This document shows, in pieces, positions 9,308-59,499 of a stretch of DNA of 64,000 bases. Position numbers and translations under genes: made by a program. The DNA comes from Theocolax elegans (taxonomy: Eukaryota; Arthropoda; Insecta; Hymenoptera; Cerocephalidae). Below the pieces are notes generated by a model. It was not told the DNA's origin. It worked only from the letters and a program-made list of their open reading frames with translations, and did not search any database. The stretch is from assembly GCA_026168455.1 (NCBI GenBank), contig CM047431.1, positions 12,078,183 through 12,142,182 of the forward strand. The letters run 5' to 3'. Every line of letters begins with the position of its first letter. Within the stretch, counting starts at the first letter, position 1.

Positions 9308-11701
9308 ATGGAGAACGTACGGAAATTTCCAGCTAAGTATCCCGATTTTAAAATCGAGAGTGGTTTTCTTTACGCACATCGTCCAAACCCATTAGTCGAT
9401 CCATTGTTCCCTGATTTGGATGCGTGGAAATTAGTTCTTCCAGCATCAAACAGACCCCAAGCTCTTTTCGAAGCCCATAATACTCCTCAATCAGGACATT
9501 TAGGCATAGAAAAAACTTACGCACGTCTTGCGACTTATTATTATTGGCCAGGTTATTTTTACGATACCTCTTGTTATGTCCGATCGTGTCATGAATGTCA
9601 AATCCACAAAAGTTGCCAATTGCCCCCGGCAGGGCTAATGGGCGAAAGAAATATCGAGGGATCATGGAAAGTTGTGGCTGCCGATATTATGGGCCCGAAG
9701 CCAAAATCTAAACGAGGTTTCAGATACGTAATTGTTTTTGAAGATTTATTCACTCGTTACGTAGAAATTCAGCCACTTAGGAAAGCAGACGCTAAAAGTG
9801 TATGGCAAGCTTTTGAAGATTTGATCATAAACCGATGGGGATGTCCTAAGTTTTTGTTGACAGATAATAGGACTGAATTTGCCAATAAATTAATGTCTGA
9901 ACGCTTAGATGCTTACGGTATTAAGCAAACTACCACACCGCCTTATAGACCCCAAGCGAATCCTGTAGAGCGAGTAAACCGTAATTTAAAGCCTATGATT
10001 AACAGCTTTTTAGCTGAAGATCATAAAGAGTGGGATCTGCATTTAAAGGAATTTTGTTTCGCTTTAAATACAACGATTCACTCGTCGCTTAAAACAACAC
10101 CAGCGTTTATGAATTTGGGTAGAAATCCGGAACCATCCATCCTAATCCGAAAGCACCTCGAAAATCCCATTCCTATCCTTCCTGAAGACTCAGAAAAGTG
10201 GTCAGATCGTATGAAGAGACTTCCAGCTCTTCACGATTTAGTTAAACATCATATGGATAAAGCCACTGCTAGGCAAGCCAAATATTATAACAGGAATAGA
10301 AGGGATATTACTTACCAGATAGGAGATAAAATAGTTAGATTAAATCGTGTCCAATATTCTGCAGAAGAAAATTTTGCAGCCAAACAGGCTCCAAAATTTG
10401 TAGGTCCAGCAACAGTAGTCGAAATTAAATCCCCTACTGTTTATATCGTAGAAGATGACGATACAAAGAAAAGAACTGAAATATCCATAGAGGATATTAA
10501 GCGATACATTCCGCCCCGAAAGGTAAATATCAATCCCATTTCTATTCCAGATGTTACAACGGCGAAGCAGCCTACGAGGAAGGGGAGGATGAGGCGGAAC
10601 GTCGGCAGTTCGACGACCTCTGATGGGCGAGGCGCCGATCTACCTACCTCCCCAAAACGTAGCAGCGCTACCCACTCCAGCAACACCTCCAGCACCACCG
10701 TCCCCGGTGCCTCAACGGACGCTTCCGAAGAGGGAGAAGAGTCCGGAGGGGTATCGGTACCGGGGTTACGTGCCGTACCGGGCGGATGTGACGGAGACGC
10801 CGAGCCACTACGGCGAAAGCGTCCCGCGGCACAGGCCCCCGCAACCACGGGGAAGAGGAAGGAGCCAGACGAGGGAGCCGGTGGCGAGAGACCTCCAAGG
10901 CGCCGAGGTCGGCCACGGAAAGCCGCCTGCGCAATGCGAGCGACCGCAGGTCCCGGTGAATCCACCGCCTCCTCCAGCACCAGTCCCTCAACCCCAACCC
11001 CATCCAGCACCACAGCCCCCTCCAGCACCATCTCACCAACCCCATCCAGCACCATCTCACCAACCCCATCCAGCACCACTTCCCAGTCCCATTCCCATCT
11101 AGCACCATTCCCTGTGACCCGTCCCCAACCCCTTGCGCCGCAATCTCCCGACCCCCTTCCCGCATTCCCCAGACCCATTACCCAAGTATACCACGACCCC
11201 TCCCAAGACCATGCAATGCGCATCGTGCATTTTGTCCCTATCCCTATCCCGTATACCCCTTCCCTTACCCTTTCCGGATTGCCCCCACCCCTATTGGCCC
11301 CTATCCAAAACGCCCCTCCAGCACCCCGTCAAACCACCCCACCTCCCGAAGAACGCCGTACGGGACCGGTTTCCCCACCTATCCCATCCCTGTTGTCCCT
11401 GAAAATTTCCCCACCACCCCAATTACCCTCACCATTCAGCACCAGATCCCCAACACCCCCCAGACGATCCCAGCGAACCTGGATGCTTCCGGCCCAGAAC
11501 CTCGCCGTGTCCAGCACCCTGGCCCCACGTCCAACGGCATACAGTGGCCGTAGAAGGCAGGGATGCTGGAACTGTGGAGCAGGAACCACAGTTGGCAGAG
11601 GTGTCCGGAGGCAAGGATCAAGTTTTGCCGCGGATGTGGCAGGACCGGGGACGACCATTGAGGCCTGTCCGGAATGCCAGGAAGATGGGTACAAGCCCTG
11701 A
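9308..11701 (+). pseudogene. pol: Integrase of element A with long Pro/Ser/Thr tail
   Basis: The frame is open slightly upstream of 9308. Zinc-binding HHCC region: HNTPQSGHLG ... CHECQIHK. Catalytic DDE core: AADIMGP, LLTDNRTEF and NPVERVNRNLK, all three acidic residues present. C-terminal GPY-like region: APKFVGPATVVEI, ending near DIKRYIPPRK. After that the same frame runs on for about 370 residues of low-complexity sequence with an AT-hook (RRRGRPRK, near 10893-10922) and SST repeats encoded by the CCAGCACC motif. In this copy the frame slips into that of the downstream zinc-knuckle ORF through a 1-base difference near 11072 compared with the duplicate at 12455. The knuckle itself is destroyed by a second indel near 11578. 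Confidence 0.85.
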
Positions 11702-11730
11702 GGATTCACCCTAAATAGGGAAATGTAGAA
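10350..11730 (+). repeat. Tandem duplication in element A, copy 1
   Basis: This stretch starts inside the integrase C-terminal domain and ends at AAATGTAGAA. It is repeated directly head to tail at 11731-13114. The copies differ by only a few single-base indels. Confidence 0.9.
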
Positions 11731-13114
11731 TCCAATATTCTGCAGAAGAAAATTTTGCAGCCAAACAGGCTCCAAAATTTGTAGGTCCAGCAACAGTAGT
11801 CGAAATTAAATCCCCTACTGTTTATATCGTAGAAGATGACGATACAAAGAAAAGAACTGAAATATCCATAGAGGATATTAAGCGATACATTCCGCCCCGA
11901 AAGGTAAATATCAATCCCATTTCTATTCCAGATGTTACAACGGCGAAGCAGCCTACGAGGAAGGGGAGGATGAGGCGGAACGTCGGCAGTTCGACGACCT
12001 CTGATGGGCGAGGCGCCGATCTACCTACCTCCCCAAAACGTAGCAGCGCTACCCACTCCAGCAACACCTCCAGCACCACCGTCCCCGGTGCCTCAACGGA
12101 CGCTTCCGAAGAGGGAGAAGAGTCCGGAGGGGTATCGGTACCGGGGTTACGTGCCGTACCGGGCGGATGTGACGGAGACGCCGAGCCACTACGGCGAAAG
12201 CGTCCCGCGGCACAGGCCCCCGCAACCACGGGGAAGAGGAAGGAGCCAGACGAGGGAGCCGGTGGCGAGAGACCTCCAAGGCGCCGAGGTCGGCCACGGA
12301 AAGCCGCCTGCGCAATGCGAGCGACCGCAGGTCCCGGTGAATCCACCGCCTCCTCCAGCACCAGTCCCTCAACCCCAACCCCATCCAGCACCACAGCCCC
12401 CTCCAGCACCATCTCACCAACCCCATCCAGCACCATCTCACCAACCCCATCCAGCACCAACTTCCCAGTCCCATTCCCATCTAGCACCATTCCCTGTGAC
12501 CCGTCCCCAACCCCTTGCGCCGCAATCTCCCGACCCCCTTCCCGCATTCCCCAGACCCATTACCCAAGTATACCACGACCCCTCCCAAGACCATGCAATG
12601 CGCATCGTGCATTTTGTCCCTATCCCTATCCCGTATACCCCTTCCCTTACCCTTTCCGGATTGCCCCCACCCCTATTGGCCCCTATCCAAAACGCCCCTC
12701 CAGCACCCCGTCAAACCACCCCACCTCCCGAAGAACGCCGTACGGGACCGGTTTCCCCACCTATCCCATCCCTGTTGTCCCTGAAAATTTCCCCACCACC
12801 CCAATTACCCTCACCATTCAGCACCAGATCCCCAACACCCCCCAGACGATCCCAGCGAACCTGGATGCTTCCGGCCCAGAACCTCGCCGTGTCCAGCACC
12901 CTGGCCCCACGTCCAACGGCATACAGTGGCCGTAGAAGGCAGGGATGCTGGAACTGTGGAAGCAGGAACCACAGTTGGCAGAGGTGTCCGGAGGCAAGGA
13001 TCAAGTTTTGCCGCGGATGTGGCAGGACCGGGACGACCATTGAGGCCTGTCCGGAATGCCAGGAAGAATGGGTACAAGCCCTGAGGATTCACCCTAAATA
13101 GGGAAATGTAGAAT
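11731..13114 (+). repeat. Tandem duplication in element A, copy 2
   Basis: Begins TCCAATATTCTGCAG exactly as at 10350, so the integrase C-terminal segment is present twice. Slippage or unequal exchange is the simplest cause. Copy 2 keeps the zinc knuckle that copy 1 has lost. Confidence 0.9.
12004..13101 (+). CDS. Pro-rich zinc-knuckle ORF downstream of integrase
   Basis: 365 codons starting at ATG 12004, in a different frame from the integrase tail that it overlaps. The body is Pro/Gln-rich low complexity. The C-terminus carries CWNCGSRNHSWQRC, a perfect CX2CX4HX4C knuckle, then CRGCGRTGTTIEACPEC, the same two-part pattern as the nucleocapsid end of insect gypsy Gag proteins. Its equivalent in copy 1 is open only from 10623 to 11102. 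In an intact element this could be a separate 3' gene or a frameshift extension of pol. It ends 16 bases before the end of the repeat unit. Function is unknown; nucleic-acid binding is inferred from the knuckle. Confidence 0.6.
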   Translation: MGEAPIYLPPQNVAALPTPATPPAPPSPVPQRTLPKREKSPEGYRYRGYVPYRADVTETPSHYGESVPRHRPPQPRGRGRSQTREPVARDLQGAEVGHGKPPAQCERPQVPVNPPPPPAPVPQPQPHPAPQPPPAPSHQPHPAPSHQPHPAPTSQSHSHLAPFPVTRPQPLAPQSPDPLPAFPRPITQVYHDPSQDHAMRIVHFVPIPIPYTPSLTLSGLPPPLLAPIQNAPPAPRQTTPPPEERRTGPVSPPIPSLLSLKISPPPQLPSPFSTRSPTPPRRSQRTWMLPAQNLAVSSTLAPRPTAYSGRRRQGCWNCGSRNHSWQRCPEARIKFCRGCGRTGTTIEACPECQEEWVQALRIHPK

Positions 13115-42204: not shown

Positions 42205-42906
42205 TTAAAATAATACTGCTTGCGTTTGTCCTGGTGGTCCTGGATTAAAGGTCTTGGTTTTCGAAATTTTGAAGGGTTTTGGCTCATTTTTCTTATAATG
42301 TTGTTCAGGATTCCTTTTCTTTAGTTTGTATTCTCGTGTTTTCTTTTTATCTCTTTTGTGTTTTCTATGTTTTTTTGTTCGCTTTTCCTTTTTATTTTTC
42401 GTCTGTTTGATATCGCGTGGAGGAGAGTAGCGAGGTGTTGGTGGTCTATAGTCCGGGGAATATGTTTCTTCTTCTATTAATGAGATAGGGCTAAGTCTTT
42501 GCACAATTTGATGTTTGGTAGGTGGTTTTTCCAGTGTTCTGTCGGTATTTATGATTTCTCGATCTGAATGACTTTCATCGTCTTTGTTATCCTGCTTGTG
42601 AATTTTTTCTAATGTTTCTGGATTTATAAATAGTGGATCCTTTTCTTGAGTTTCTATAGGTGTCGTGTAATAATTTTTCGAATCTGCATCAACTTTAACT
42701 GTTTCATGTACAAGAAATATATTTGACAATTCTACATTGTTTTGTTCTAAATATTCTTTAAAATCTGTAGGACCCATATTTGCGTTTGCAGCATTGGAAG
42801 CCATCATGAATCTTTTATATTCCCAACGTAGACGTGTATTTTTGCCTCCTCGCTTTCGTTTCCTCTTGGCAGAAGTGAGCAAAATATTATTACATGGAAT
42901 TTTCAT
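42205..42906 (-). CDS. Lys/Arg-rich accessory ORF downstream of env (element B)
   Basis: Intact 233-codon ORF at the 3' end of element B, after env. Starts MKIPCNNILLTSAKRKRKRG with a clear basic nuclear-localisation-like stretch, an acidic middle, a PPTPRYSPPR segment and a very basic C-terminal third (KNKKEKRTKKHRKHKRDKKK). No known domain recognised. Position and composition recall small regulatory RNA-binding proteins of complex retroviruses, but this is analogy only. Being open for 233 codons in a damaged element, it deserves attention. Confidence 0.65.
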   Translation of the reverse strand: MKIPCNNILLTSAKRKRKRGGKNTRLRWEYKRFMMASNAANANMGPTDFKEYLEQNNVELSNIFLVHETVKVDADSKNYYTTPIETQEKDPLFINPETLEKIHKQDNKDDESHSDREIINTDRTLEKPPTKHQIVQRLSPISLIEEETYSPDYRPPTPRYSPPRDIKQTKNKKEKRTKKHRKHKRDKKKTREYKLKKRNPEQHYKKNEPKPFKISKTKTFNPGPPGQTQAVLF

Positions 42907-43178
42907 ATTTATGCAAATGTGTTAAAGTTACAGCAGTTCTGTAGCTGAAATTATAATTACGTATAAGAAGATTATTTTATTTTTGTATTTATTTATCTAT
43001 TTTTTTTTTGTTACAATAAAATAGTCTATTAAATCTATTTAGTTTGGTTAGTTGTTCTAACTACTTTTATCTAATTACAATTTTACTATTTAACTACAGC
43101 ATAAGTTATATAAATGTATATAATTTTTATTTTGTGATACATGTTTTTGAAGAAATATCTGACAGAAAGTTATTCTCA

Positions 43179-45113
43179 TTACGGTATTTCTGAGGATAGG
43201 GCACGAATAGGATTAGTTTTAGTTTCTTTCTGTCCTTCTGTTGCTATAATTTCCGCGGGTTCTGTAGGTCCTATATCTGGTTGTTGACGCATTCTATGAG
43301 CAGAATGTAGTAATAATTGAGTTAGTGAATTCCATACAGCAGCTAACAATCTTATAGAGCAGCCATATGCTTGATGTAAAGGGTAACCATGCAAAACTGT
43401 ATCTGCAGTTGCCTTGATGATTTTGATTATTAAATAAACTCCGAGTATTCCAGAAATTGCGTTACCGAAGATGGAAAATTTATTCCATAATCCATACCAA
43501 AATAATGTAGTCATGCGTTCGATTGTTTCTTCGTTCAGGAGATTGTGGATTGAAATGCCCTGTTCTTCTATTGGTTGTCCAGTTATTCCACGTGTAAGTG
43601 TATTTAAAACGGCAGGTTGTTCCATTGGGAACATAATTCTTTCTTGAAGGTTATTGAGTTCTTGCATGGTATAAATTCCGCTTGTTGCTAATGCTCCGGG
43701 ATCTTCATAATTCCAATTAAAAGGTACATTTGGTTCTAGAATCTCTGGTAATGTAGTTTTTCTGGGATTAGGCAGGAATTCGTACCAGTGATCATTTATT
43801 TTATAAGTGGACGGTATAGCTGCATCACATGGTATTTCGGTTCCTTTTCGTAATAATATATGTGTTTTCGGCGTGAGGAAATAGGTTTTGTTTGATTTCC
43901 AAACTGGTAATTCAATAAAACAATTTTCGGGGCGTCTGATGGTTACTTGCATTGGTAAGCATTTTATTAATCTAATAACTTCTCCTGTAATGACTGCAAT
44001 ATATCCTGATTCTCCCATTAGGTTATAAGCAAATTCATCTGGTTTGATAGTGGAAAGGGAAAGGAGATTTTTAAGAATTTTTCTTTCTGACAGATACCTC
44101 TGCATCAAAATGTCACGATATAAACGATCCATTTGCCTACGAACATGACGTTCTACATAAACAAATTTGGAATTAACATATGTGAACATATCAATATTTT
44201 CAGGTAGAGATTTTTTTGTTTGCGCAAAAGGGGCTTCATTATCGCTTGATTCTGATATAAATAATTTAGGGTGCTCGGTTTTAAGAAACACGTAACCACA
44301 GACTTGGGTTCTTCCAGTACTGATCAAAGAAAAGGTATAATCCCGATTTATAACGGTAAATAAAGGTTTAGGTACGTGTTCATCCAAGTTGGTGGTTACG
44401 TGTGCCATTCCTTCACATGAAACTTGATAATCTTCAAAATGACAGTTTGTTGATGGTGTATTTTTCCAAAAGGTTTGTCCTCCAATGTTGTCCATGCAGG
44501 TTTCCTTAGATAATTTACAAACAGTGCCAGATTTTAATCGGATTTGATTATTATTAGTGTTTGTGCTTGCAGTATATGAGATTAATGTTATTTTGACACT
44601 AGCTTGCACTACAACATTGTCCCATGTTCCATGCATTTCGGAGTATTGAGTGCCTTTGCAAGTGCCATCGGGCTTCAGTGATCCTGCTAATGTGACTGGT
44701 CGAACAGTGGTAGTGTTGGGTTGTAATCCTGATATAATTGTATTATATCATAGTTTCATAATACCTGTGGTGTGTAATTCTTCGTAACTTTCCCTGGAAA
44801 CTTCTTGAATATATTCCAGTTGACCTCCTGATACTATTGACATATGTGAATACATCCCACAATGATAGATGATTCGCGATATTTCTATTTTACATTGTTT
44901 TACTTCGGTGATACCATACTTTGATGTTTGTAAAAGGCGTATAAATTTCTGTGTAATTTGTGTTCGAGGTAGTGTTATGTCGCATTCCTTTACGCTTAAA
45001 GTTGAAATTCTAGTTATATTTAATCCGTGGCCTCCGCAATTATACCCAATAATTGATTCTGTGGAAGTCAATCGTAGGGTTGCAAATAGAATGAACCAAA
45101 TCCGCATGTTCAT
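43179..45113 (-). pseudogene. env: Envelope glycoprotein gene of element B, one in-frame TGA
   Basis: A single frame of about 644 codons with TGA at 44748-44750. Hydrophobic signal peptide at the start (IWFILFATLRLTS), Cys-rich ectodomain, N-glycosylation sequons (NITR, NTTT), and a C-terminal membrane segment around residues 540-562 (ISGILGVYLIIKIIK) followed by a cytoplasmic tail of about 70 residues. The role would be membrane entry between cells. Cys pattern and segments such as YHCGMYSHMS look to me like glycoproteins of negative-strand RNA viruses (chuvirus/mononegavirus-like) seen captured in arthropod retroelements, rather than the baculovirus-F-like env of gypsy. That assignment is from memory of the family and needs a search. 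Confidence 0.7.
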
Positions 45114-45152
45114 TTTTTCCGTTTTAGCCTTTGATTAAATCTGCAAAAAGTT

Positions 45153-48100
45153 TCAACTATTGAATATCTTGAGCTTATTTGGATGTTTTAGAAAACGTTT
45201 ACCGTTTTCATCTTCTAGTATAATAATGTTTTTTTCAGTTATTTCTACTATTTTGTATGGACCGTGATATTGGCTATCTAGTTTGTTTCTCTTGGGTTCT
45301 CGGAGGACTAAAACTTCATCTCCCTCATTAAAATCTACCTTTGTGGCATTTTGATCATAGTAATATTTTTCTTTTAATTTGGCTTTATTTAAATTTTGAG
45401 CTCCTTGCAAATGGATTTCATTCAACCTCGTAACTAGTTCAGAAACATAATCGGAATATGTAGACGTATCATTGCCAAGAAAAATAGATGATGGAGATCT
45501 AGCTGGTCTTCCGAATACCATCTCATAAGGAGTAAATTTAGTTGCGGCATGTTCGGAAGTATTATATGAGAACATGGCAAACGATACCAAATTGTCCCAA
45601 TCTTCATAATATTCAATGTTATTTTTCAGATATTCTGATAGGACAATATGACTTCTCTCAAGTGATCCGTTGCTTTGAGCCATGTAACCGGAAGTAGTAA
45701 CGTAATCAATCTTAAATATTTTTGCTAGATCTCTAAATATTTTATTTAAAAAACTTGTTCCTCTATCTGTAAGTATTATCGAGGGTGCTCCATAAATTGA
45801 GATAAAATGAGTGGCGAATGCATGTACGATTGTTGTAGCTTTTATATCTGATACTGGAACAGCTATGCAATATTTAGTTAATAAACATTGCATTGTTAAA
45901 ATATGTTTATTTCCGTTTGGTGTTGTGGGTAATGGCCCGACTGTATCTAGCGCAATTTTCGAAAAAGGTTCAATTGGGGTATCTGTAATTATTATCGGCA
46001 TTTTAGTTTTTATTCTTGTTAGTTTTTGGGTTTGACAGGTGTGACAAGTCCTAACATATTCAGTGATTTCGTTTTTCATATTGGGCCAATAAAATTTTTC
46101 TCTGATGCGTTTGTATGTTTTAGTGATTCCTTTGTGTCCTCCTATTAGACTATCGTGGCCTTCCTTTAATATTATCTCTCTTGTTTCTTCAGGTGCAAAA
46201 ATGCTTTGACCATAACAAAGCGTTATTTTTATTGAACTATTTTCGAATACATCTGTTAATATATTTAATAAACCATTACTTGGGAGAGAATCGGTTTCAT
46301 CGTGTATTCTTGAGATTCTAAATTCGTTGACTTTAACCTTGGGTAATATTGTTTTAAGCTTCTCTAGACCGCTTTTAATGTCGTTTGAATCGATTCTATC
46401 GAAATGTTTGGATTTACAGATTATATGGAATGTTTTAAACTTTCCTTTTTGTGTGATAATAATTTGTCCTTTTAGAGGATGCTTGTCTCTAATTGCTTCT
46501 AGATTAAGTGCTCTGATCTCATATAGCAATTTTCCAATTGGTTTAGTTAATTTACAATCAGCAGACATAAAGTGAACATAATTCATTTTTCTAAAGGTTA
46601 GTGATTCGCTTGTACCAATAATTGTGGCTCTTTCGGGTGAAGTGCTATCTTTTATCTCTATTTCGTCTGGTATATTTCGCGATAGTAGATCCCTAGGTTC
46701 TAGATTATCTAGTTCCCTATTTTCTTCTTGTGAGTTATGATTATCTTCATCACTATCGTAATCTTCTTCGTCTTCTTTTTGCGGTACGGTTAATTCGTGT
46801 AAGGGAGTATAACGGGGTAGGTTAGGTCGGATGTGGAGAGGTGTAGAGTGAGACAAAGGTTTAGGTTGGTCAGTCTGGTTTGGATTATCAGAATTACTAA
46901 GGTTCTTGGAAGTAGGGAGATTGGAAGAGGAAGTTGAAGGGTAAGATTGATTGTTATTTTTATGAATCTGATCAATATTTGTTTCGTCATCTAGGAGTGA
47001 ATTCATCATCCTTATATCTTCAGCAATGGATTTGATTCTATCAATAGCATTTTCTAAATCTGAAAATGAAGAATCAGATTCATGATGTTGTAATTCCTTT
47101 GCAATATCTTCTAGCTTTGAAGATGTTTCTTCATCACTTGAATCATCTTCATCATTGTTAACGTGAAATAGGTCTGATATATTCTCGTCATTTGTTAAAA
47201 TTTCCTGTTCTTTCGGGGGTAGGTAGGGAGGTGGTGTTATTAAACTAGGTAACATACTGCGATGTATTGAAGGGGCGGGTGATTCTTCCTTATTTGGTAC
47301 AACTATTTCATTCAGGTTTTCTTCTTCGCTTTCATCTGAAGATTCGTCATAATTTGGCAAGGTTGGTGGTTGAACTTTTAATGAATCCTTTGATCTTAAA
47401 CGGTGAGCAATGGGTGTTGAGGTCCTGGGCGGTGGAAAAGGTTTAACTGATGTAGGGTCTTTTCGAGGCCTTCCTCTTTTTCGATTTTTATGTTCTGAAT
47501 TTTCTTCAGTGATCGGATAGGCATTTGCTTCGGGTGAATTACGCGATAGGGCATCAGCATTAAGATTTACTTTTCCTGGTTTATGGACTATTTTGTACTG
47601 GTATTCTGCTAATCTCAGTCTCCATCGAACTAATCGAGAACTTGGATCTTTCACAGAATGTAACCAAACTAGTGGTCTGTGGTCTGTCACGAGAACAAAT
47701 TCGCGACCAAACAAATAGGGTCTAAAATGATTTACAGCATATACAAATGCAAGACATTCTTTTTCGGTTGTTGAATAATTTCTCTCGGCATTGTTGAGTA
47801 CTCGAGAGGTATATGCGATGGGTAAATCTTTTCCTATTGGTCCTTGGCTAAGTACTGCACCAATAGCTACGTTAGAAGAATCGGTGGTTAAAACAAATGG
47901 CTTAGTAAAATCAGGATATTGTAAAATTGGTTCTCTACAGAGGGTCTCCTTTAAGTCTTGAAAACTATCTTCTTGTTTGGTAGTCCAAACAAAGTCTGCG
48001 TCTTTTTTTAATAAATCTGAGAGTGGTTTTGCTCGTTTAGAAAAATTTTCAATGAATCTGCGATAATATCCAGCTAAACCAAGAAACTCTCTAACGTTTT

Positions 48101-49685
48101 TATGGGTTTTAGGTCTTGGAAAATTTTGTACATCTTTAATTTTATCGGGGTTTGGTTTGACTCCTTTATCAGAAATAATATGTCCTAAATAACACACTTC
48201 TTTTCTTAGGAATTCGCATTTATCAGGTTGTAGACGTAGATTTGCTGATCTTAATAATTTAAATAGTTTTTTCAATTTGTTTTGATGTTCTTGTAATGAA
48301 CTTGCATATACAACTATGTCGTCAATATAAATAAATACTTCTATTTCGACGAGGCCGGAAAGCGCGATTTCCATTGCACGTTGGAATTGTGCGGGTGCAT
48401 TTTTCAAGCCAAAGGGCATTCGAACGTATTCGTAATGACCACCTGGTGTACTGAATGCAGTTTTACACTTATCTTTTTTGTCCATTAATATTTGATGAAA
48501 CCCACTTGATAAATAAAAAATACTAAAGAATTTTGCTGATCCTAACCGATCCAATATCTCACTGATGTTGGGTAGTGGATAGGCATCTCGTATTGTTTTT
48601 TCATTTAATTTTCTAAAATCAATCACCAATCTCCATCGTTTATTACCCTTAGAGTCTGGTTTTTTGGGCACTATCCATAGTGGAGAATTGTATGGGGAAC
48701 TAGATGGTTCAATTTTTCCCTGTTCAAGCATTTGATTAATTTGTTTATTTATTTCCTCTTTGTGGATTGGTGGATATCGGTATTGCCATGTATTTATAGG
48801 TTCTTCATCTATTGTTGGATTTTTATGTGTGCAAATGTTGGTGGCAGGTAAAGTCTCGTTCGGTAAATGAAAACTATCTTGGTATTCTTCGATTAAAGGC
48901 ATTATGCTATTTATTTCTTCGTCAGTCAAATGTTGAAGATGTAAGTTGTTTTTTAATTCTTCAAGTCGTGTATAGGAATTTTGACCTGGACCAGTAGGGA
49001 TAGGAAAATCTCTGAAATCGTCTACTATGTCGTTTATTTCAAATGGTTCTATAATCTGTGGAGGTATATATACTTTCGTGTCTCTATTGTGAGTATTTAC
49101 TATAAAAGCATAACATTTTTTTCCATGATTTTTAACAGCTGCGTTACCTAAATATATTCCTTCAGGTAGTTTAACTCGTTCAATATATCCTTCAGGTAAA
49201 TCATTTTTTACCGGAATAGAAATTGCTTGTCTGGTTTGAGCTTTGATGACATAATATTGTCCACTTATTTCATTTTGAAAATTGGTTTCCTTTTGGTTTT
49301 GCATAATGAATGGTATAGGCGTGATAGGTGCGTTCGTTGTTATTAAAGTTTTATTATAAATGGAAATTTCGGCTTCTTCCTTTGCTAGAAATTCAGTACC
49401 TAATATTCCGTCACAATTATCCGGTAAGAAGCTGTCACTTAAACGAAAATTTATGGGCCTTCCTTGGATATGAAGGTCACAAGATCCAAGAGTAGATACT
49501 CTACTTCCGGAAATTCCAAAAAGGTTAATTGTATCTTCGTATTCTATTTCTACGGTTTGTCTTAAAGCGGTTGACTTAATTAAATTTAGGTCCGAGCCAG
49601 TGTTGATTAAAAAATTTCCGTATGTCTTTTTGAGTTCTGGAATTTTAAGGGTTACTATTGGGGTGAATTTAACTAATTTGGCGAG
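45153..49685 (-). pseudogene. pol: pro-pol of element B with macrodomain and AT-hook
   Basis: Open from 49685 to 45153 (first ATG 49304; residues counted from it). Overlaps the gag end by about a dozen bases in the -1 frame. Order: protease before the ATG (FLINTGSDLNLI, Asn replacing the catalytic Asp), RT (LVIDFRKLNEKT, SIFYLSSGFHQI where the motif A Asp is Tyr, EYVRMPFGLKNAPAQFQ, IYIDDIVVY at about 325), RNase H about 470-600 (TTDSSNVAIGAVL ... NLNADALSR), AT-hook KRGRPRK at about 610, acidic linker, macrodomain about 905-1031, integrase (HDSLIGGHKG, CHTCQTQK, ALDTVGPL, ILTDRGTSF, SLERSHIVLSEYL) to residue 1383. No stop codons despite the two active-site losses. Confidence 0.9.
46210..46590 (-). 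other. TARG1/ALC1-type macrodomain inside pol
   Basis: Residues about 905-1031 of the pol frame read as a small macrodomain: start strand MNYVHFMSADCKLTKPIGK, GQIIITQKGKFKTFHIICKS, the helix DIKSGLEKLKTILPKV, FRISRIHDETDSL, and the end VFENSSIKITLCYG. Order and spacing match TARG1/OARD1-like macrodomains (known family: bind ADP-ribose and remove it from acidic residues, using a Lys and an Asp). The Lys-containing CKSK segment and an Asp in HDETD are in the right places, but the usual glycine-rich GxGLD loop is altered, so hydrolase activity is uncertain. Confidence 0.8.
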
Positions 49686-50750
49686 TCAGATTTCTTTGGT
49701 TGGTCGCTGAATCGTACATTGCGCGGTTTGTTTTGGTTGGGGTTCGGAGACGCGCTGTTTTGCCGAACCATGTTGAAGTTTAAATGAGGTGAAGGTGATC
49801 TTGATTGTCTGTTGAATCCGTTTTCTTCTTGACGATGGAAAGAATTTCTTTCGCGTCTAGATTCGCGCCAATTTGAATCATAAGATGCGTTAGTTCGTCT
49901 ATCTTGTAAACTTGGACTAAGACAACGATTTGGATAATTGTCATAGTTAGATTCCCTTTGATATGGGCTTCCTTCGCGTTGTAGAATTCGTCTTGGCATT
50001 TCATAATCTTGTCTATAATTGTATAAACGTTTATCTTTTTGATAAGTGTCATGGTATTTAGAATCGTCTAACCGTATGGGTGATTCACGACGAGGTGATC
50101 TTGGTTGGTATTCTTCGTGTTTAAAATACTCTGAGCGTCTTGGAGATTCATTACGGGTCATTCTTGTTTGGTATGCATTTTCTAAAGGATGTGATCTAAC
50201 CATAGACTGTTGTTCTAGTCTAATTGCGGTGTTATATGCAGCTTGTAAACTCGTCTCTTAATCCTTTCGAAAATCCTTTTATAGCCATATCTTTTATGAT
50301 CGGTGAATTTGCATTGTTCTCTGCGCCGTATTCGTTAATTAGAGCGGCTTCAGTTGACCCTTGCAATTTTTTTACTCTAAGGAAAAATTCTGTTACAGTT
50401 TTGGAGCGGTACATCCGAATATTTTGTAATACTGTGCAGAAATCCGTATAACTTCGGCGAGGGGCAAAATATTTTTTTAATTCGTTAGTTAATTCTTTAA
50501 CAGTCTGTATTTTTATTCCATCAAGACAGTCTCGTGCTAAGCCTCTAAGTTTAGATTTAACAGCATTTATAAAAACTGCTTCTTGATCTCCTGCTATTGC
50601 ACTGCCATTTTCAACATCTTGAATAAAACTTTTCAAAGGCATAATTTTACCATCATAGCACGGTATATGCATCGTAGCAGATTGAATCGTCATGTTCAAA
50701 GACATGCTATGCATAGAGGTGATAAATTGTCTCGTTTGATCAGCGTCCAT
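49673..50750 (-). pseudogene. gag: gag of element B, one frameshift
   Basis: 50750-50232 is the capsid-type part: ATMHIPCYDGKIMPLKSFIQ, ARDCLDGIKIQTVKELTNEL, MYRSKTVTEFFLRVKKLQGS, FSKGLRDEFTS. A 1-base shift near 50250 moves to the frame of 50203-49673, an Arg/Ser-rich basic C-terminus (RREREN-like and RSPSP repeats) with no zinc knuckle, as in errantivirus Gag proteins. The end overlaps the start of the pol frame. Confidence 0.8.
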
Positions 50751-51013
50751 TTTGATTTTTTTATTTGGATTTGTTATGGAATATTATATATATAGTATAT
50801 GGGCACTTAATTATATAATTTAAGTAATAATTGTTAGGTAAAGTTTTTAGAAAAATTTTATGTACAGGGAAATTTTTCCCTTTTTTTTCAATTTTATAAC
50901 GAATAAATATTATTTAGTTAGTTATTATAATTAATTTTAATATATATATGTTAAATTATTAATAATAAATGTATAATTGGTTTGTTATATTAAACGATAG
51001 GTTTTAAATGAAG
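50751..51013 (-). other. Upstream region of element B gag
   Basis: AT-rich, no ORF. Ends at the 13-bp target duplication of PLE 4 and continues on the other side of it at 59491. Confidence 0.6.
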
Positions 51014-51117
51014 GGTGCTTATTCTGATATAAATTTGTTCTATTCGTCCACGCAGTTGGTTCAAAAGGAGGCGTTTTTATCGATTTTAAGTGAACTAACC
51101 ATTTAATTTATTTAATT

Positions 51118-51158
51118 GGCGACGTTTCGATGGAAGTCCTCCATCCTCATCAGGCTAT
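51118..51158 (-). ncRNA. Hammerhead ribozyme (left, inverted repeat of PLE 4)
   Basis: Minus strand: CTGATGAG, stem II GATGGAGGACTTCCATC, GAAAC, GTCGCC. The core bases all match the consensus. Confidence 0.85.
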
Positions 51159-51424
51159 ACCTTTATTGAAACAATCATTTGTTACACCAGCATTTTACAA
51201 TTTTGCATATATATATCTAAATATAATTACTCACTATTTGGTCAAATTAATGCACAAATGTGGCTTTTCTCATAATTTCCATAGTATCTCTAATGTGTCG
51301 CTCTATAATCAAAAGCAAAAGCAAGTAGCAAAACATCAGTGTTAAAATTTGCACAAAGATTGAGGTTATGTAACTTATTTTACCTTTCTTCTCTGAATCG
51401 TACTTATATAACATCATAGAATTT

Positions 51425-51430
51425 ATTTAA

Positions 51431-51478
<48 letters not shown>
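51425..51478. repeat. AAAT microsatellite
   Basis: About a dozen AAAT units; the mirror TTTA array is at 59101-59147 in the right inverted copy. Confidence 0.9.
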
Positions 51479-51481
<3 letters not shown>

Positions 51482-51995
51482 ATAGAACACACAACACCAA
51501 TTAAGCAAAAAGCAGTCAATATCAATAAAATTTATCAGAAAACAAAATTTGCTAGTCATTATCACAGATAGTTGGTAAAGCTATAATTCAAATTTTTGCG
51601 ACCCGTCATTATACACTTGTAGTGTGTGTCAATTTGACCGTATTCATGACATAGACGTGTAGCAAAAATTTGAATATTAATAAATCCTATACGAAATGTA
51701 ATATCATTAATTAACATCAAACTTAAGTCAATAATATTAAAAAAATTCTTTTATAAATACCACTAAAAAAACAATTAATGAACACGTAACCATATAAATA
51801 TTATTATTTGTACTTTAATATTTCTATAATTTAAAGTTATATTAACATTGATTCATTCATTATTGTCAATTACTGTTAAAAATTTTTTCTTAAAAATTAA
51901 TAATAATTCAGTCTATATTTATTGCACTTTGTTAAAATATATTTACCATTTACAAATTAAAAATTAAATTTTGATTTTTTCCCAATTTCAAATTT

Positions 51996-52209
51996 ATGCG
52001 CGTATTAATCATTAATCGATTACAGCGCAGAAAATTTGATAAATTAACTTATTGTACAATTAAGAGCAGAAGTAGTAGCAATGCATATGTGTCGAATAAT
52101 TGTTCCACAAATACAAATAGTTACAAAAAGAAATGGTTTATCAACCTAACTAATGTTAATATTCCTGATGAAGTTCAAGATACAGTATCCTTAGGCCAAA
52201 AATATAGTT
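51996..52209 (+). pseudogene. PLE 4 ORF start, cut by solo LTR
   Basis: MRVLIINRLQRRKFDKL ... KKWFINLTNVNIPDEVQDTV resembles the N-terminal region of PLE proteins and continues after the LTR (53441 onward, with a stop soon after). The start codon choice is tentative because it lies at the edge of the inverted repeat. Confidence 0.55.
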
Positions 52210-53436
52210 TGTGACAATGCATTTAATGCATGTCAAGTTAAGCGAGCTTATACCCTACCTAAAGCCTTACCGAACCCTAACTAAGCCTTATCGTACCCTA
52301 CCTAAGCCTCACCGAACCCTACTAGCCTACACACACACAGGGAAGCTGCATCACCGAGCACAAAGCAACAGCTCAGGAGTCTCCAGGAAGATCCAGAGGA
52401 AGCCCGAGTTGAAGTAATGCCAGGAAGTGGTGAGGAGAAGTCCTTCGCATCACACCTGAAGAAGCAGCGTAGCCAATCACCTCCCACAGCAGCCATCCAA
52501 TTCAGCAAATAAACCTGTAAGATTACTGCTTACAGTGTGCACCTTACAAAGGAAAAGGACAGGATCACAGCAGTTAAACAGCTATGTATAGGATGGGTGC
52601 AGAGGAGAGGTTAGGTGAGACAACAATACATAAACCGAGTAGCCGTACGGTTTATAACTCACCCAGGTAAAACGCTGACTGCATTCCCGAGTCCTCGAGC
52701 CAGTGATCGCAAGAGAGAAGAAGGAGGCAGCCAAGAGCACCACGAAGAAGGCCGAACAGCTACGTCGTCGTCGCCACCAACTCGCCGTCGTTGTTTACGT
52801 TCGTGCGCGGCGGACATCTTCGTTAAGCCGCACGCGGCATAAGGCCGCGTACGCACGAAGTAGTCACGGCGCATGCGCGCAGCGACTCTCTCGCGTCGAC
52901 GACGACGAGAGCTCAGAGCTCGTCCGACCGCCGATTCGGAACAATCGATCTACGCGTTGACGACGTCCGTGAGAGAGCGATCGAGAAAGAGATAGCGAAG
53001 AGTGTGTGCCGCACGTGTGACAGCATCGCCAAAGGTTTGTGCAACCTAGTGCCAAAGTCATAGCCGTTTCCTTGCCTGTGTGTGTGTCGCGAACTCCCGT
53101 GTATCCTAGCTTCTTCCCTGTTATTATTACAATAGCCTTGCTCGCCGCGTAAAATAGTGTACCCCAGCTTCTTCTCCTCCTCCCTTCGCGCGCGAAGTAG
53201 CCGGCTTACAAGACGCGTGTTACAGCCGTGCCGTTCGCTTCTTATTTCGAATATTACGATATATAACCGCGTATATCCAATTGAACTTCCGTTTTAAGCG
53301 AATAGCGAATCGCTATAATTACTTGAACGTACGCGACTGGCACCCGCTGTGATTATTATAATATATTAATAAATTAATAATTTATCATTAAACCTAATTT
53401 GATCACTCGCACCCTGATCCCCAGTGCGACGTGACA
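52210..53436 (+). repeat. Solo LTR in PLE 4 (related to LTR of element C)
   Basis: Starts TGTGACAATGCATTTAATGC and ends CCCAGTGCGACGTGACA; 1227 bp; perfect 4-bp duplication AGTT (52206-52209, 53437-53440). Repeated CCCTACC/CCTTACCGAACCC motifs near the start. GC-rich. Confidence 0.9.
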
Positions 53437-54432
53437 AGTTCTAGTAATTTTTTAGAGTAAAATAGTATAATAGAAACCATAAAGAATGTGAAACAATTAT
53501 TTATACACACAGAAATTGCAAAAGAATCAATGAATCTTATTAGGAAAAATATTACTAATTATATGGAAGGAAATATAAAAAGAACTACACATATAAACAT
53601 TGAAGACAGATTATTTGCACAAAGATTGAAACAAACAAAGTTGTTTTTAAAAAATAATACCAATGTATTTTTTACTTTAGCTGACAAAGGTAACGTCACA
53701 GTTGCTATTCAAAGAGATTCATATGAACTCAAAATGCACAATCTTTTATCAGATAGTAAAACATATATTCGAATAAATAGAAATCCACTAATAAAATTAC
53801 AAAAAGATACACAAAAGATTATGCAAAAGTGGAATAAATTAGAACTCTTGGGTAAAAAATGCCATAATAATGAATTAACCCAAACAGATACAGTACTGCC
53901 GAGAATTTATGGATTACCAAAAGTACATAAAAAAGAATATCCACTTAGGCCTATTGTTTCATGTATTGGCAGTCCCACATACAAGCTATCTAAAATAATA
54001 GACAAAATGCTTTCGAATTGCATAAAGAGACCTAAATCTTATGTTAAAAATAGTGTAGATTTAATAAATGAAATTAGCAACTGTGATATTCCTGAAAATT
54101 ATGTTTTGATTTCTTTAGATGTAGTGTCCTTATTTACCAACGTACCCGAAAATTTAGTGATTGAGAGTATTGAAAAAAGGTATCACCTTATAAGAAAAAT
54201 TTACAATATCTCATTAAATGATCTTCTAGAAGGTGTAAAATTTTTGCTACGTAATACGTATTTTTCTTGGGATAAAAAATATTATAGACAAATTTTTGGC
54301 TTTCCCATGGGTAGTCCGATAAGCCCAACTTTTGCAGATTTGGTAATGACAGATTTAGAACAGGAGTGCTTAAATAATTTAGATTTTATACCGGTGTTTT
54401 ACTACAGATATGTAGATGACACAATAATGTGC
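52541..54432 (+). repeat. 1892-bp tandem duplication, copy 1
   Basis: Covers the last 900 bp of the solo LTR and the first part of the PLE 4 RT ORF to just past the YVDD motif. Repeats directly at 54433-56324 with no difference noticed. The junction has TGTGCA microhomology. Confidence 0.9.
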
Positions 54433-54483
54433 ACCTTACAAAGGAAAAGGACAGGATCACAGCAGTTAAACAGCTATGTATAG
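53488..54483 (+). pseudogene. PLE 4 RT, truncated copy 1
   Basis: Identical to the first 310 or so residues of the ORF at 55380, through motif C (YYRYVDDTIMC), then runs into LTR sequence (TLQRKRTGSQQ) because of the tandem duplication. It lacks the thumb and endonuclease. Confidence 0.85.
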
Positions 54484-56324
54484 GATGGGTGCAGAGGAGA
54501 GGTTAGGTGAGACAACAATACATAAACCGAGTAGCCGTACGGTTTATAACTCACCCAGGTAAAACGCTGACTGCATTCCCGAGTCCTCGAGCCAGTGATC
54601 GCAAGAGAGAAGAAGGAGGCAGCCAAGAGCACCACGAAGAAGGCCGAACAGCTACGTCGTCGTCGCCACCAACTCGCCGTCGTTGTTTACGTTCGTGCGC
54701 GGCGGACATCTTCGTTAAGCCGCACGCGGCATAAGGCCGCGTACGCACGAAGTAGTCACGGCGCATGCGCGCAGCGACTCTCTCGCGTCGACGACGACGA
54801 GAGCTCAGAGCTCGTCCGACCGCCGATTCGGAACAATCGATCTACGCGTTGACGACGTCCGTGAGAGAGCGATCGAGAAAGAGATAGCGAAGAGTGTGTG
54901 CCGCACGTGTGACAGCATCGCCAAAGGTTTGTGCAACCTAGTGCCAAAGTCATAGCCGTTTCCTTGCCTGTGTGTGTGTCGCGAACTCCCGTGTATCCTA
55001 GCTTCTTCCCTGTTATTATTACAATAGCCTTGCTCGCCGCGTAAAATAGTGTACCCCAGCTTCTTCTCCTCCTCCCTTCGCGCGCGAAGTAGCCGGCTTA
55101 CAAGACGCGTGTTACAGCCGTGCCGTTCGCTTCTTATTTCGAATATTACGATATATAACCGCGTATATCCAATTGAACTTCCGTTTTAAGCGAATAGCGA
55201 ATCGCTATAATTACTTGAACGTACGCGACTGGCACCCGCTGTGATTATTATAATATATTAATAAATTAATAATTTATCATTAAACCTAATTTGATCACTC
55301 GCACCCTGATCCCCAGTGCGACGTGACAAGTTCTAGTAATTTTTTAGAGTAAAATAGTATAATAGAAACCATAAAGAATGTGAAACAATTATTTATACAC
55401 ACAGAAATTGCAAAAGAATCAATGAATCTTATTAGGAAAAATATTACTAATTATATGGAAGGAAATATAAAAAGAACTACACATATAAACATTGAAGACA
55501 GATTATTTGCACAAAGATTGAAACAAACAAAGTTGTTTTTAAAAAATAATACCAATGTATTTTTTACTTTAGCTGACAAAGGTAACGTCACAGTTGCTAT
55601 TCAAAGAGATTCATATGAACTCAAAATGCACAATCTTTTATCAGATAGTAAAACATATATTCGAATAAATAGAAATCCACTAATAAAATTACAAAAAGAT
55701 ACACAAAAGATTATGCAAAAGTGGAATAAATTAGAACTCTTGGGTAAAAAATGCCATAATAATGAATTAACCCAAACAGATACAGTACTGCCGAGAATTT
55801 ATGGATTACCAAAAGTACATAAAAAAGAATATCCACTTAGGCCTATTGTTTCATGTATTGGCAGTCCCACATACAAGCTATCTAAAATAATAGACAAAAT
55901 GCTTTCGAATTGCATAAAGAGACCTAAATCTTATGTTAAAAATAGTGTAGATTTAATAAATGAAATTAGCAACTGTGATATTCCTGAAAATTATGTTTTG
56001 ATTTCTTTAGATGTAGTGTCCTTATTTACCAACGTACCCGAAAATTTAGTGATTGAGAGTATTGAAAAAAGGTATCACCTTATAAGAAAAATTTACAATA
56101 TCTCATTAAATGATCTTCTAGAAGGTGTAAAATTTTTGCTACGTAATACGTATTTTTCTTGGGATAAAAAATATTATAGACAAATTTTTGGCTTTCCCAT
56201 GGGTAGTCCGATAAGCCCAACTTTTGCAGATTTGGTAATGACAGATTTAGAACAGGAGTGCTTAAATAATTTAGATTTTATACCGGTGTTTTACTACAGA
56301 TATGTAGATGACACAATAATGTGC
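54433..56324 (+). repeat. 1892-bp tandem duplication, copy 2
   Basis: Second copy; includes a second partial LTR (54433-55328) and its AGTT flank. Runs into the intact remainder of the PLE ORF. Confidence 0.9.
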
Positions 56325-57249
56325 ATTCCTGAAAATAAGATAACTAAAGTATTAGAGGTATTCAATAATTATAACGCACGATTACAATTTACTCATGAAA
56401 AAGAAAAAAATGGTGCTATAAACTTTTTAGAGTTATCTTTAATTAGAAATAATCATAGTAAAAAAATAATCACGAATTGGTATAGGAAAGAAACATTTTC
56501 AGGTAGATTTTTACATTTTTTATCCAGTCACCCTATTGAACAAAAACGAGCTATGATATATACGTTGGTAGATAAGGCAATCTTATTGTCAAACCAGAAG
56601 TTTCATAACACCAACTTAAAAATAGTTAAAGAGTTTTTAGTTAATAATGAGTACCCAATTAAATTTATTAATCATAATATAAGAAAAAGAATGGAAAAAA
56701 TAAAATATAGAACTAATAGCAATAATATTCAACAAAATAAACAAAATAGATACTTTGCAACTTTAAGCGTTCCATATGTTCCAAATTTTTATAATAATGA
56801 GTCTGGTTTTATGAAACAGAAGGGTATTAGGGTTGTTCCTAAAATTTGTAATGGATTAAGTAATGTTATTGTTAGAGGCAAGGAAAAATTAGACAAACTT
56901 TGTGAAACAAATTTAGTATACAGAATTAAGTGTAATGATTGTGACGCAGCATATATAGGAGAGACAAAAAGGCAATTAAATTGGAGAATAAAAGAACACG
57001 AATCTAATAGTAAAAAGTCGGGTGTGCAATATGTTATAAATGACCATATAACAAAATATGACCATACATTTAATTTTAAAGATGTAGACGTGTTAGATAG
57101 AGAAAAAATTTAGGGGAAAAGACTGATATCAGAGATGACCCATATTAAATTAGAGAAGAATGCCATTAACGTAAAAGATGATACAAAAAATCTTAGCCAA
57201 TTTTACAATAACATTGTTAATCAACTCAAATTACGGTCCAAATTGTAAT
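55380..57249 (+). pseudogene. PLE 4 reverse transcriptase / GIY-YIG endonuclease
   Basis: 577 codons to TAG 57111-57113, then the same frame continues (GKRLISEMTHIKLEKNAINV) to TAA at 57249. RT motifs: FFTLADKGNVTVAIQ, YGLPKVHKKEYPLRPIVS, VLISLDVVSLFTNVP (A), QIFGFPMGSPISPTFADLVM (B), FYYRYVDDTIMC (C). Then WYRKETFSGRFLHFLSSHP and the endonuclease NLVYRIKCNDCDAAYIGETK with QLNWRIKEHE. PLE proteins use the endonuclease to open the target and RT to copy the RNA. The TAG falls late, is present in the downstream partial copy too, and removes about 45 residues. Confidence 0.9.
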
Positions 57250-57917: not shown

Positions 57918-59099
57918 AAAATAAAATATAGAATAATAGCAATATATTCAACAAATAATACAAATGATACTTTGAACTTAAGGTTCATATGTAAATTTTA
58001 TTAAAGAGTCTGGTTTTATGAAACAGAAGGGTATTAGGGTTGTTCCTAAAATTTGTAATGGATTAAGTAATGTTATTGTTAGAGGCAAGGAAAAATTAGA
58101 CAAACTTTGTGAAACAAATTTAGTATACAGAATTAAGTGTATGATTGTGACGCAGCATATATAGGAGAGACAAAAAGGCAATTAAATTGTAGAATAAAAG
58201 AACACGAATCTAATAGTAAAAAGTCGGGTGTGCAATATGTTATAAATGACCATATAACAAAATATGACCATACATTTAATTTTAAAGATGTAGACGTGTT
58301 AGATAGAGAAAAAATTTAGGGGAAAAGACTGATATCAGAGATGACCCATATTAAATTAGAGAAGAATGCCATTAACGTAAAAGATGATACAAAAAATCTT
58401 AGCCAATTTTACAATAACATTGTTAATCAACTCAAATTACGGTCCAAATTGTAATAATTTCCTTTCTTTCTTGAACGTAATTCAAAAATAATGCTAGTTA
58501 TCTACAGATGGTAGATCAATTAGTTCAAATTTAATTACAAGTATTATAATCAGCGCTGTAATCGATTACTGATTAATACGCGCATAAATTTGAAATTGGG
58601 AAAAAATCAAAATTTAATTTTTAATTTGTAAATGGTAAGTATATTTTAACAAAGTGCAATAAATATAGACTGAATTATTATTAATTTTTAAGAAAAAATT
58701 TTTAACAGTAATTGACAATAATGAATGAATCAATGTTAATATAACTTTAAATTATAGAAATATTAAAGTACAAATAATAATATTTATATGGTTACGTGTT
58801 CATTAACTATTTTTTTAGTGGTATTTATAAAAGAATTTTTTTAATATTATTGACTTAAGTTTGATGTTAATTAATGATATTACATTTCGTATAGGATTTA
58901 TTAATATTCAAATTTTTGCTACACGTCTATGTGATGAATACGGTCAAATTGACACACACTACAAGTGTATAATGACGGGTCGCAAAAATTTGAATTATAG
59001 CTTTACCAACTATCTGTGATAATGACTAGCAAATTTTGTTTTCTGATAAATTTTATTGATATTGACTGTTTTTTGCTTAATTGGTGTTCTGTGTTCTAT

Positions 59100-59142
<43 letters not shown>

Positions 59143-59477
59143 TTAAATAAATTCTATGATGTTATATAAGTACGATTCAGAGAAGAAAGGTAAAATAAGT
59201 TAAATAACCTCAATCTTTGTGCAAATTTTAACACTGATGTTTTGCTACTTGCTTTTGCTTTTGATTATAGAGCGACACATTAGAGATACTATGGAAATTA
59301 TGAGAAAAGCCACATATGTGCATTAATTTGACCAAATAGTGAGTAATTATATTTAGATATATATATGCAAAATTGTAAAATGCTGGTGTAACAAATGATT
59401 GTTTCAATAAAGGTATAGCCTGATGAGGATGGAGGACTTCCACCGAAACGTCGCCAATTAAATAAATTAAATGGTTA
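57918..59477 (+). repeat. Second, 5'-truncated PLE 4 copy in tandem
   Basis: Repeats 56700-57880: degenerate start, then CDAAYIGETKRQLN (58140-58190, with one frameshift), the same late TAG, the same 3' UTR, and then the complete 3' end with TTTA repeats and hammerhead that the first copy lacks. Confidence 0.85.
59414..59455 (+). ncRNA. Hammerhead ribozyme (right end of PLE 4)
   Basis: CTGATGAG, stem II GGATGGAGGACTTCCACC, GAAAC, GTCGCC. Consensus core intact. Same motif, inverted, at 51118-51158. Confidence 0.85.
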
Positions 59478-59499
59478 GGTGCTTATTCTGGTTTATTAA

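Follow-up and report, generated by a model that had tools for sequence, protein, structure and literature searches.

Identity and fold of the pol segment

What occupies the stretch of polyprotein between RNase H and integrase in an env-containing gypsy element of the hymenopteran Theocolax elegans, and what might it do there? The element lies on the minus strand of a 64,000-nucleotide stretch of contig CM047431.1 (hereafter the window), within a genome of 658 megabases. The original prediction placed a TARG1-like macrodomain at 46210-46590, and we confirm that this pol segment is a macrodomain of TARG1 (OARD1/C6orf130) descent, the resemblance being much too strong for chance. Of all PDB sequences, the closest to the single window segment (E 5.5e-4) is human TARG1, which is also the best match for a profile made without the near-canonical rows described below (E 7e-21, the next other molecule being at 0.041), and the best PDB match in a fold search with the AlphaFold model, which has the macro fold; the structural comparison with OARD1 proposed in that prediction thus bore it out. 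The homology to TARG1 extends over the full length and is significant both by the single segment and by the profile, at ∼18% identity for the window segment.

The four peptides cited for the domain (FMSADCKL, FHIICKSKHF, RISRIHDETDS and KITLCYG) all occur in the minus-strand pol translation, and the order of Pfam domains in the pol frame places it between RNase H and integrase, as proposed. Its location was correctly given; its extent is slightly wider, ∼46197-46604, and the pol residues are 1028-1163 rather than 890-1040, with numbering that starts at the codon following the upstream stop. The pol features are as follows.

45153-49685, minus strand: pol frame, open for 1510 codons from stop to stop (start codon not sought)
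48174-48668, minus strand: reverse transcriptase (PF00078; Pfam scan)
47601-47912, minus strand: RNase H-like domain (PF17917; Pfam scan)
46605-47543, minus strand: linker of ∼310 residues between RNase H and macrodomain, charged and by eye of low complexity
46197-46604, minus strand: TARG1-type macrodomain, pol residues 1028-1163 (PDB profile search, AlphaFold model, fold matches, hidden Markov model family)
46413-46415, minus strand: Lys1091, equivalent of the TARG1 catalytic Lys84 (alignment to TARG1)
46290-46313, minus strand: loop 3 (SRIHDETD), with GxG lost (alignment to TARG1)
46290-46292, minus strand: Asp1132, at the position of TARG1 Asp125 (alignment to TARG1)
46023-46193, minus strand: integrase zinc-binding domain (PF17921; Pfam), directly following the macrodomain
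45693-45968, minus strand: integrase core rve (PF00665), 31.9 bits, just below the cut-off of 32.6

The order reverse transcriptase, RNase H, integrase is that of Ty3/gypsy elements, the rve core being sub-threshold. General domain libraries give no hint of the macrodomain: the window segment has no Macro (PF01661) match at E ≤ 1 in Pfam and none in the NCBIfam and PHROGs scans. A Pfam match to Spectrin_Dys-1 (E 0.028, below cut-off) and a single PHROGs match without known function (E 0.1) are regarded as chance.

Recurrence in related elements

No relatives surfaced until a joint protein query of macrodomain and integrase was used. It gave 323 matches, of which 120 were listed, their source names including bees, wasps, ants and an aphid. 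The segment used as sole query, or scored by itself across a pol-length span, yielded 3 and 120 protein candidates respectively, with no match at E ≤ 10, and no relatives were found in phage records, plasmid records or viral contigs. The window segment by itself matches 48 of the 120 listed relatives over most of its length (E < 1e-6; E-values of the family profile refer to a database of those 120 sequences). A profile of those 48 and the window matches 112 of the 120, and in 97 the match spans almost the whole length; 112 of 120 is not a fair census, because the query contained the macrodomain and 120 of the 323 matches were listed. The eight without a profile match are P0031, P0033, P0035, P0077, P0096, P0104, P0111 and P0119. 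By eye P0077 seems to hold a divergent copy, and the other seven show none in the spacer; in P0096, P0104, P0111 and P0119 the spacer measures 15-124 residues and the domain is absent.

Within the window's own genome, the 381-base segment gives 27 matches, the window's own among them, and is free of stops in 20 of the 22 copies fetched. A domain-blind census used the integrase zinc finger alone as query, with 150 of 6507 candidates scored, and from the 123 that scored below the best 27 a spread of 40 places was picked by eye. All 40 carry the macrodomain before the integrase by profile (weakest E 9e-8), some as partial matches (L065, L087, L092 and L093, for example); in six the domain is in another frame than the integrase (L069, L074, L080, L087, L088, L093), and in five there is one stop within it (L067, L074, L075, L078, L103). 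The domain is likewise found at each of the 30 best-scoring zinc-finger loci, three of which are shared with the 40, and at all 20 loci, overlapping the 30, from an integrase search with the query of a macrodomain-free relative. The macrodomain is widespread in the integrase families sampled. The structural match and the further copies on which the original prediction had been staked were both found.

The search with the macrodomain-free query also brought up further own-genome integrase families, 38-49% identical to the query, some with long open frames.

The ligand site

According to PMC6397177, TARG1 residues D20, L21 and F22 hold the adenine and the GxG loop holds the diphosphate, Lys84 and Asp125 are the catalytic residues, C33 and Y150 are described as lining the ligand site, and the TARG1 pattern is given as TKx(30,35)Px[IL]GxGxD. 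Aligned to TARG1, the window segment retains the equivalents of Lys84, Asp125, Ser35 and His32. The adenine clamp is absent, with S-L-gap at D20-L21-F22, and loop 3 has H-D-E where TARG1 has G-C-G, in agreement with the altered glycine-rich loop noted at the outset. Human TARG1, with which the segment shares the whole fold, the order of elements and the positions of the catalytic Lys and Asp (PDB 4J5R, 4J5S, 2EEE, 2L8R), is by contrast a stand-alone cellular enzyme with a GDLF clamp and a GxG loop, both of which the window copy lacks.

Residues were counted over 98 rows, comprising the 97 near-full-length relatives and the window, the 15 partial segments among the 112 being dropped. Lys84 is present in 68 rows and Asp125 in 50 (Glu in 13, Asn in 12), and 46 have both. 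Gly121 is found in 41 and Gly123 in 16, D20 in one and F22 in nine. The GxxF clamp occurs in nine rows and both GxG glycines in ten, P0032 and P0063 having the two glycines along with Lys84 and Asp125; no row combines the clamp with both glycines. Human TARG1 matches the published pattern, and none of the 98 pol rows does. At the two most conserved positions the prevailing residue is a derived one: Y150 is replaced by Cys in 84 of 98 rows and C33 by Phe in 81. Core hydrophobics come next, and the pocket loops differ widely; Lys84 ranks 17th of 129 positions. Lys84 and Asp125 tend to occur together (46/22/4/26, Fisher p 6e-7), an association that is not significant when phylogeny is allowed for (8 pairs, median p 0.25).

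Judged by these residues, the window segment is of TARG1-type descent yet not to be classed as a TARG1 enzyme, because no row fits the pattern and the pocket residues are altered. It is probably not an efficient hydrolase, because two of the three ligand-holding parts are gone; Lys and Asp are kept, so weak catalysis is possible.

Coupling to integrase and selection

Spacing was measured in the 100 proteins that have both RNase H and integrase, 92 of them with a macrodomain match. In all 92 the domain end, projected to where the profile finishes, falls −7 to +1 residues from the start of the integrase alignment, with RNase H-to-integrase spacers that run from 165 to 893 residues; the linker is fast evolving and highly variable in length among relatives. 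Divergence of the domain tracks that of the integrase (rho 0.67, 90 rows) and of the reverse transcriptase (rho 0.55, 62 rows), and in neither case did any of 500 permutations reach as high a value. In a model of the macrodomain together with the integrase zinc finger both parts fold (pLDDT 89.4, pTM 0.76).

The macrodomain is under purifying selection. The ratio of nonsynonymous to synonymous rates (dN/dS), proposed earlier as a check across copies, is 0.15 for the domain between the window and L014, two own-genome subfamilies, compared with 0.067 (integrase) and 0.27 (linker); the other diverged pairs with computable dS give 0.066 to 0.21 for the domain, rough values at dS 0.8-1.8.

Near-canonical forms and origin

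Eight listed rows (P0102, P0103, P0105-P0109 and P0113) are near-canonical, retaining a G-D/N-x-F clamp, the loop 2 T-K and the loop 3 Asp. Five of them are named Uroleucon formosanum, and one represents 27 member sequences. P0105 matches TARG1 with E 2.5e-36, and both it and P0103 lie above the Pfam Macro (PF01661) cut-off of 22 (27.2 and 24.0 bits). In the reverse transcriptase tree a branch with SH-like approximate likelihood ratio test (SH-aLRT) support of 100 separates the eight from all other rows. The family profile scores P0105 at 78.7 bits and a similar profile scores human TARG1 at 77.8; P0105 thus scores in effect no better than human TARG1, and independent capture of the near-canonical form is therefore possible. 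These forms may either keep the ancestral state or represent a second capture.

A host TARG1 gene as source was looked for in the window's own genome and set aside. With a near-canonical query no more than six matches came up, all weak (E 3.0e-3 to 5.5e-3), and each shares its strand with an integrase match. PF01661 gave three exon matches at two places, and no convincing match emerged when TARG1 was run against these three PF01661 loci by tblastn (best E 2.5). It is possible that this genome has a host TARG1 split by introns.

Possible roles of the domain

The account we favour as on balance probable is that a TARG1-type ADP-ribosylhydrolase was captured, became fixed as an N-terminal extension of the integrase across a wide range of insect Ty3/gypsy elements, and now serves as an integrase-linked binding module. 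It starts from what is directly established, namely the fold, the homology, the fixed place, the purifying selection, the co-inheritance with reverse transcriptase and integrase, and the existence of near-canonical relatives. The ancestor would have bound and hydrolysed ADP-ribose on proteins. Processing within the long variable linker would part RNase H from a macrodomain-integrase unit, so that the domain would stay with the integrase and add a binding function. In the window lineage this may be weak or altered ligand binding, or protein binding, in place of efficient hydrolysis, and its likeliest use would be in steering or protecting the integrase complex in the nucleus.

Several observations weigh against this account. 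In P0031 and P0033, both from bees, and in P0035 the linker is present with no detectable macrodomain, and at least in these the domain is dispensable; P0031 and P0033 group with the domain-bearing P0003 and P0015 in the reverse transcriptase tree, so that their lack of the domain reads as local loss. The pocket is not uniformly lost in the family, ten rows keeping both GxG glycines, and Asp125 ranks only 51st of 129 positions in conservation. For the near-identical pair of the window and L010 the dN/dS ratios, which are noisy, are 1.08 for integrase, 0.39 for linker and 0.33 for the domain. The dN/dS pairs quoted above have dS near 1 or higher, for many distant pairs dS is saturated (NG86), and YN00 gave no estimate for many pairs. 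Spacing is all that links the domain to integrase function, and the two-domain model, at its pTM of 0.76, is no proof of a fixed interface.

A more far-reaching account, which we hold to be possible and rather doubtful, makes the domain a hitherto unrecognised but regular constituent of pol throughout a large insect gypsy clade, an ADP-ribose-sensing arm of the integrase. It would read or clear ADP-ribose where chromatin is damaged or PARP-marked, and insertion would thereby be steered or permitted by ADP-ribosylation; the near-canonical forms would then be hydrolases and the others readers.

Macrodomains of RNA viruses remove ADP-ribose placed by host PARP-type enzymes, and the domain might similarly be an active counter-defence enzyme, removing ADP-ribose put on element or host proteins by such enzymes; the original prediction suggested a counter-defence role, with chromatin targeting as the alternative. 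The Lys84 and Asp125 kept by the window copy, their co-occurrence in the raw counts, the two-glycine rows (P0032 and P0063 with the catalytic pair included), the near-canonical P0105 and P0103 with the five Uroleucon formosanum rows, and a matching fold in insect RNA viruses all speak for this. It nevertheless appears unlikely, given that the TARG1 pattern fits none of the pol segments, that clamp and paired glycines never meet in one row, and that the Lys/Asp link fades once phylogeny is allowed for.

Slightly less likely again is that the macrodomain fold serves purely as a ligand-free structural module, a folded spacer or integrase scaffold. This would suit the derived Cys and Phe at the two best conserved positions, both of which line the ligand site in TARG1 as PMC6397177 describes it, the core hydrophobics that come next in conservation, and the wide variation of the pocket loops. 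Lys84 is, however, among the better conserved positions, and a spacer need not be so conserved (0.15 against 0.27 for the linker in the comparison with L014).

Chance resemblance of an unrelated α/β domain, with the absent Macro matches and the 18% identity in its favour, is in our view ruled out by the profile match to TARG1 and by the fold match, its probability being negligible. Equally negligible is the possibility that the window copy alone acquired the domain recently or is a chimera of the assembly. No supporting evidence was found for this, and it is refuted by the own-genome copies and by the relatives with bee, wasp, ant and aphid names.

Comparison with known systems

We take the element to belong to the errantivirus-like class of env-containing Ty3/gypsy elements, with which it shares a gag-like open reading frame (ORF), a pol with reverse transcriptase, RNase H and integrase, and an env; it differs in an env of Monjiviricetes fusion type and in the macrodomain of its pol. 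Non-primate lentiviruses carry a dUTPase between RNase H and integrase, likewise a captured nucleotide-related domain at this pol junction, although its fold and chemistry are unrelated to those of the macrodomain. Fold matches were also found in insect-associated RNA viruses, the best in Frankliniella occidentalis flavi-like virus 1; there, as in the gypsy pol, the fold lies inside a polyprotein, but with an RNA-dependent RNA polymerase and no integrase as neighbour. A macro-domain-like region is named in an aphid virus in PMC11642819. According to PMC4977317, which cites Basta et al. 2009, endogenous retroviruses of fish contain macro-domain ORFs, again a macrodomain in a retroelement; these are additional ORFs, in contrast to the fixed segment before integrase in the gypsy pol, and the passage of PMC4977317 concerned leaves the macro type unstated. 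They are the sole retroelement precedent found in searches of the open PubMed Central (PMC) literature, and among the titles listed there, subscription papers and preprints lying outside this scope, no macrodomain in a gypsy pol is evident. Domain and element class are thus known, and their combination was found undescribed in that literature.

The finding ties ADP-ribosylation biology to the integration of long terminal repeat (LTR) retroelements in insects and gives a name to an otherwise anonymous-looking RNase H-integrase spacer in such elements. Macrodomains that range naturally from near-canonical to worn-down at one fixed protein position also open a way to test whether host ADP-ribosylation is exploited or countered by retroelements.

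Other features of the element and the window

An env gene follows downstream of pol in two adjoining PF24664 pieces, as the description of the element as env-containing had implied, and a gag-like ORF lies upstream.

44751-45134, minus strand: env, first piece (PF24664 positions 1-120, E 1e-34)
43179-44747, minus strand: env, second piece (PF24664 positions 125-627, E 7e-182)
50235-50783, minus strand: gag-like ORF upstream of pol (PF03732, E 3e-4, 21.4 bits, cut-off 24.1)

In the window copy an in-frame TGA separates the two env pieces. PF24664 is Monjiviricetes_fusion, by its family name an RNA-virus type of fusion glycoprotein. No direct repeat pair was found at the two flanks of the window copy, and so no LTR pair by which to date it. 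Downstream of env, at 42205-42921 on the minus strand, is a lysine-rich ORF of 238 residues that may belong to the element as an extra ORF; Pfam gives it no match at E ≤ 0.1.

Near-identical repeats are seen elsewhere in the window. The segments 51095-52031 and 58550-59478 form an inverted repeat (98% identical), the former beginning ∼300 bases past the gag end of the element, in its expected 5′ flank. Two head-to-tail pairs are also present, one at 52536-54433 and 54428-56325 (1898 bases each, 100% identical) and the other at 10350-11731 and 11731-13114 (∼1385 bases each, 99.7% identical).
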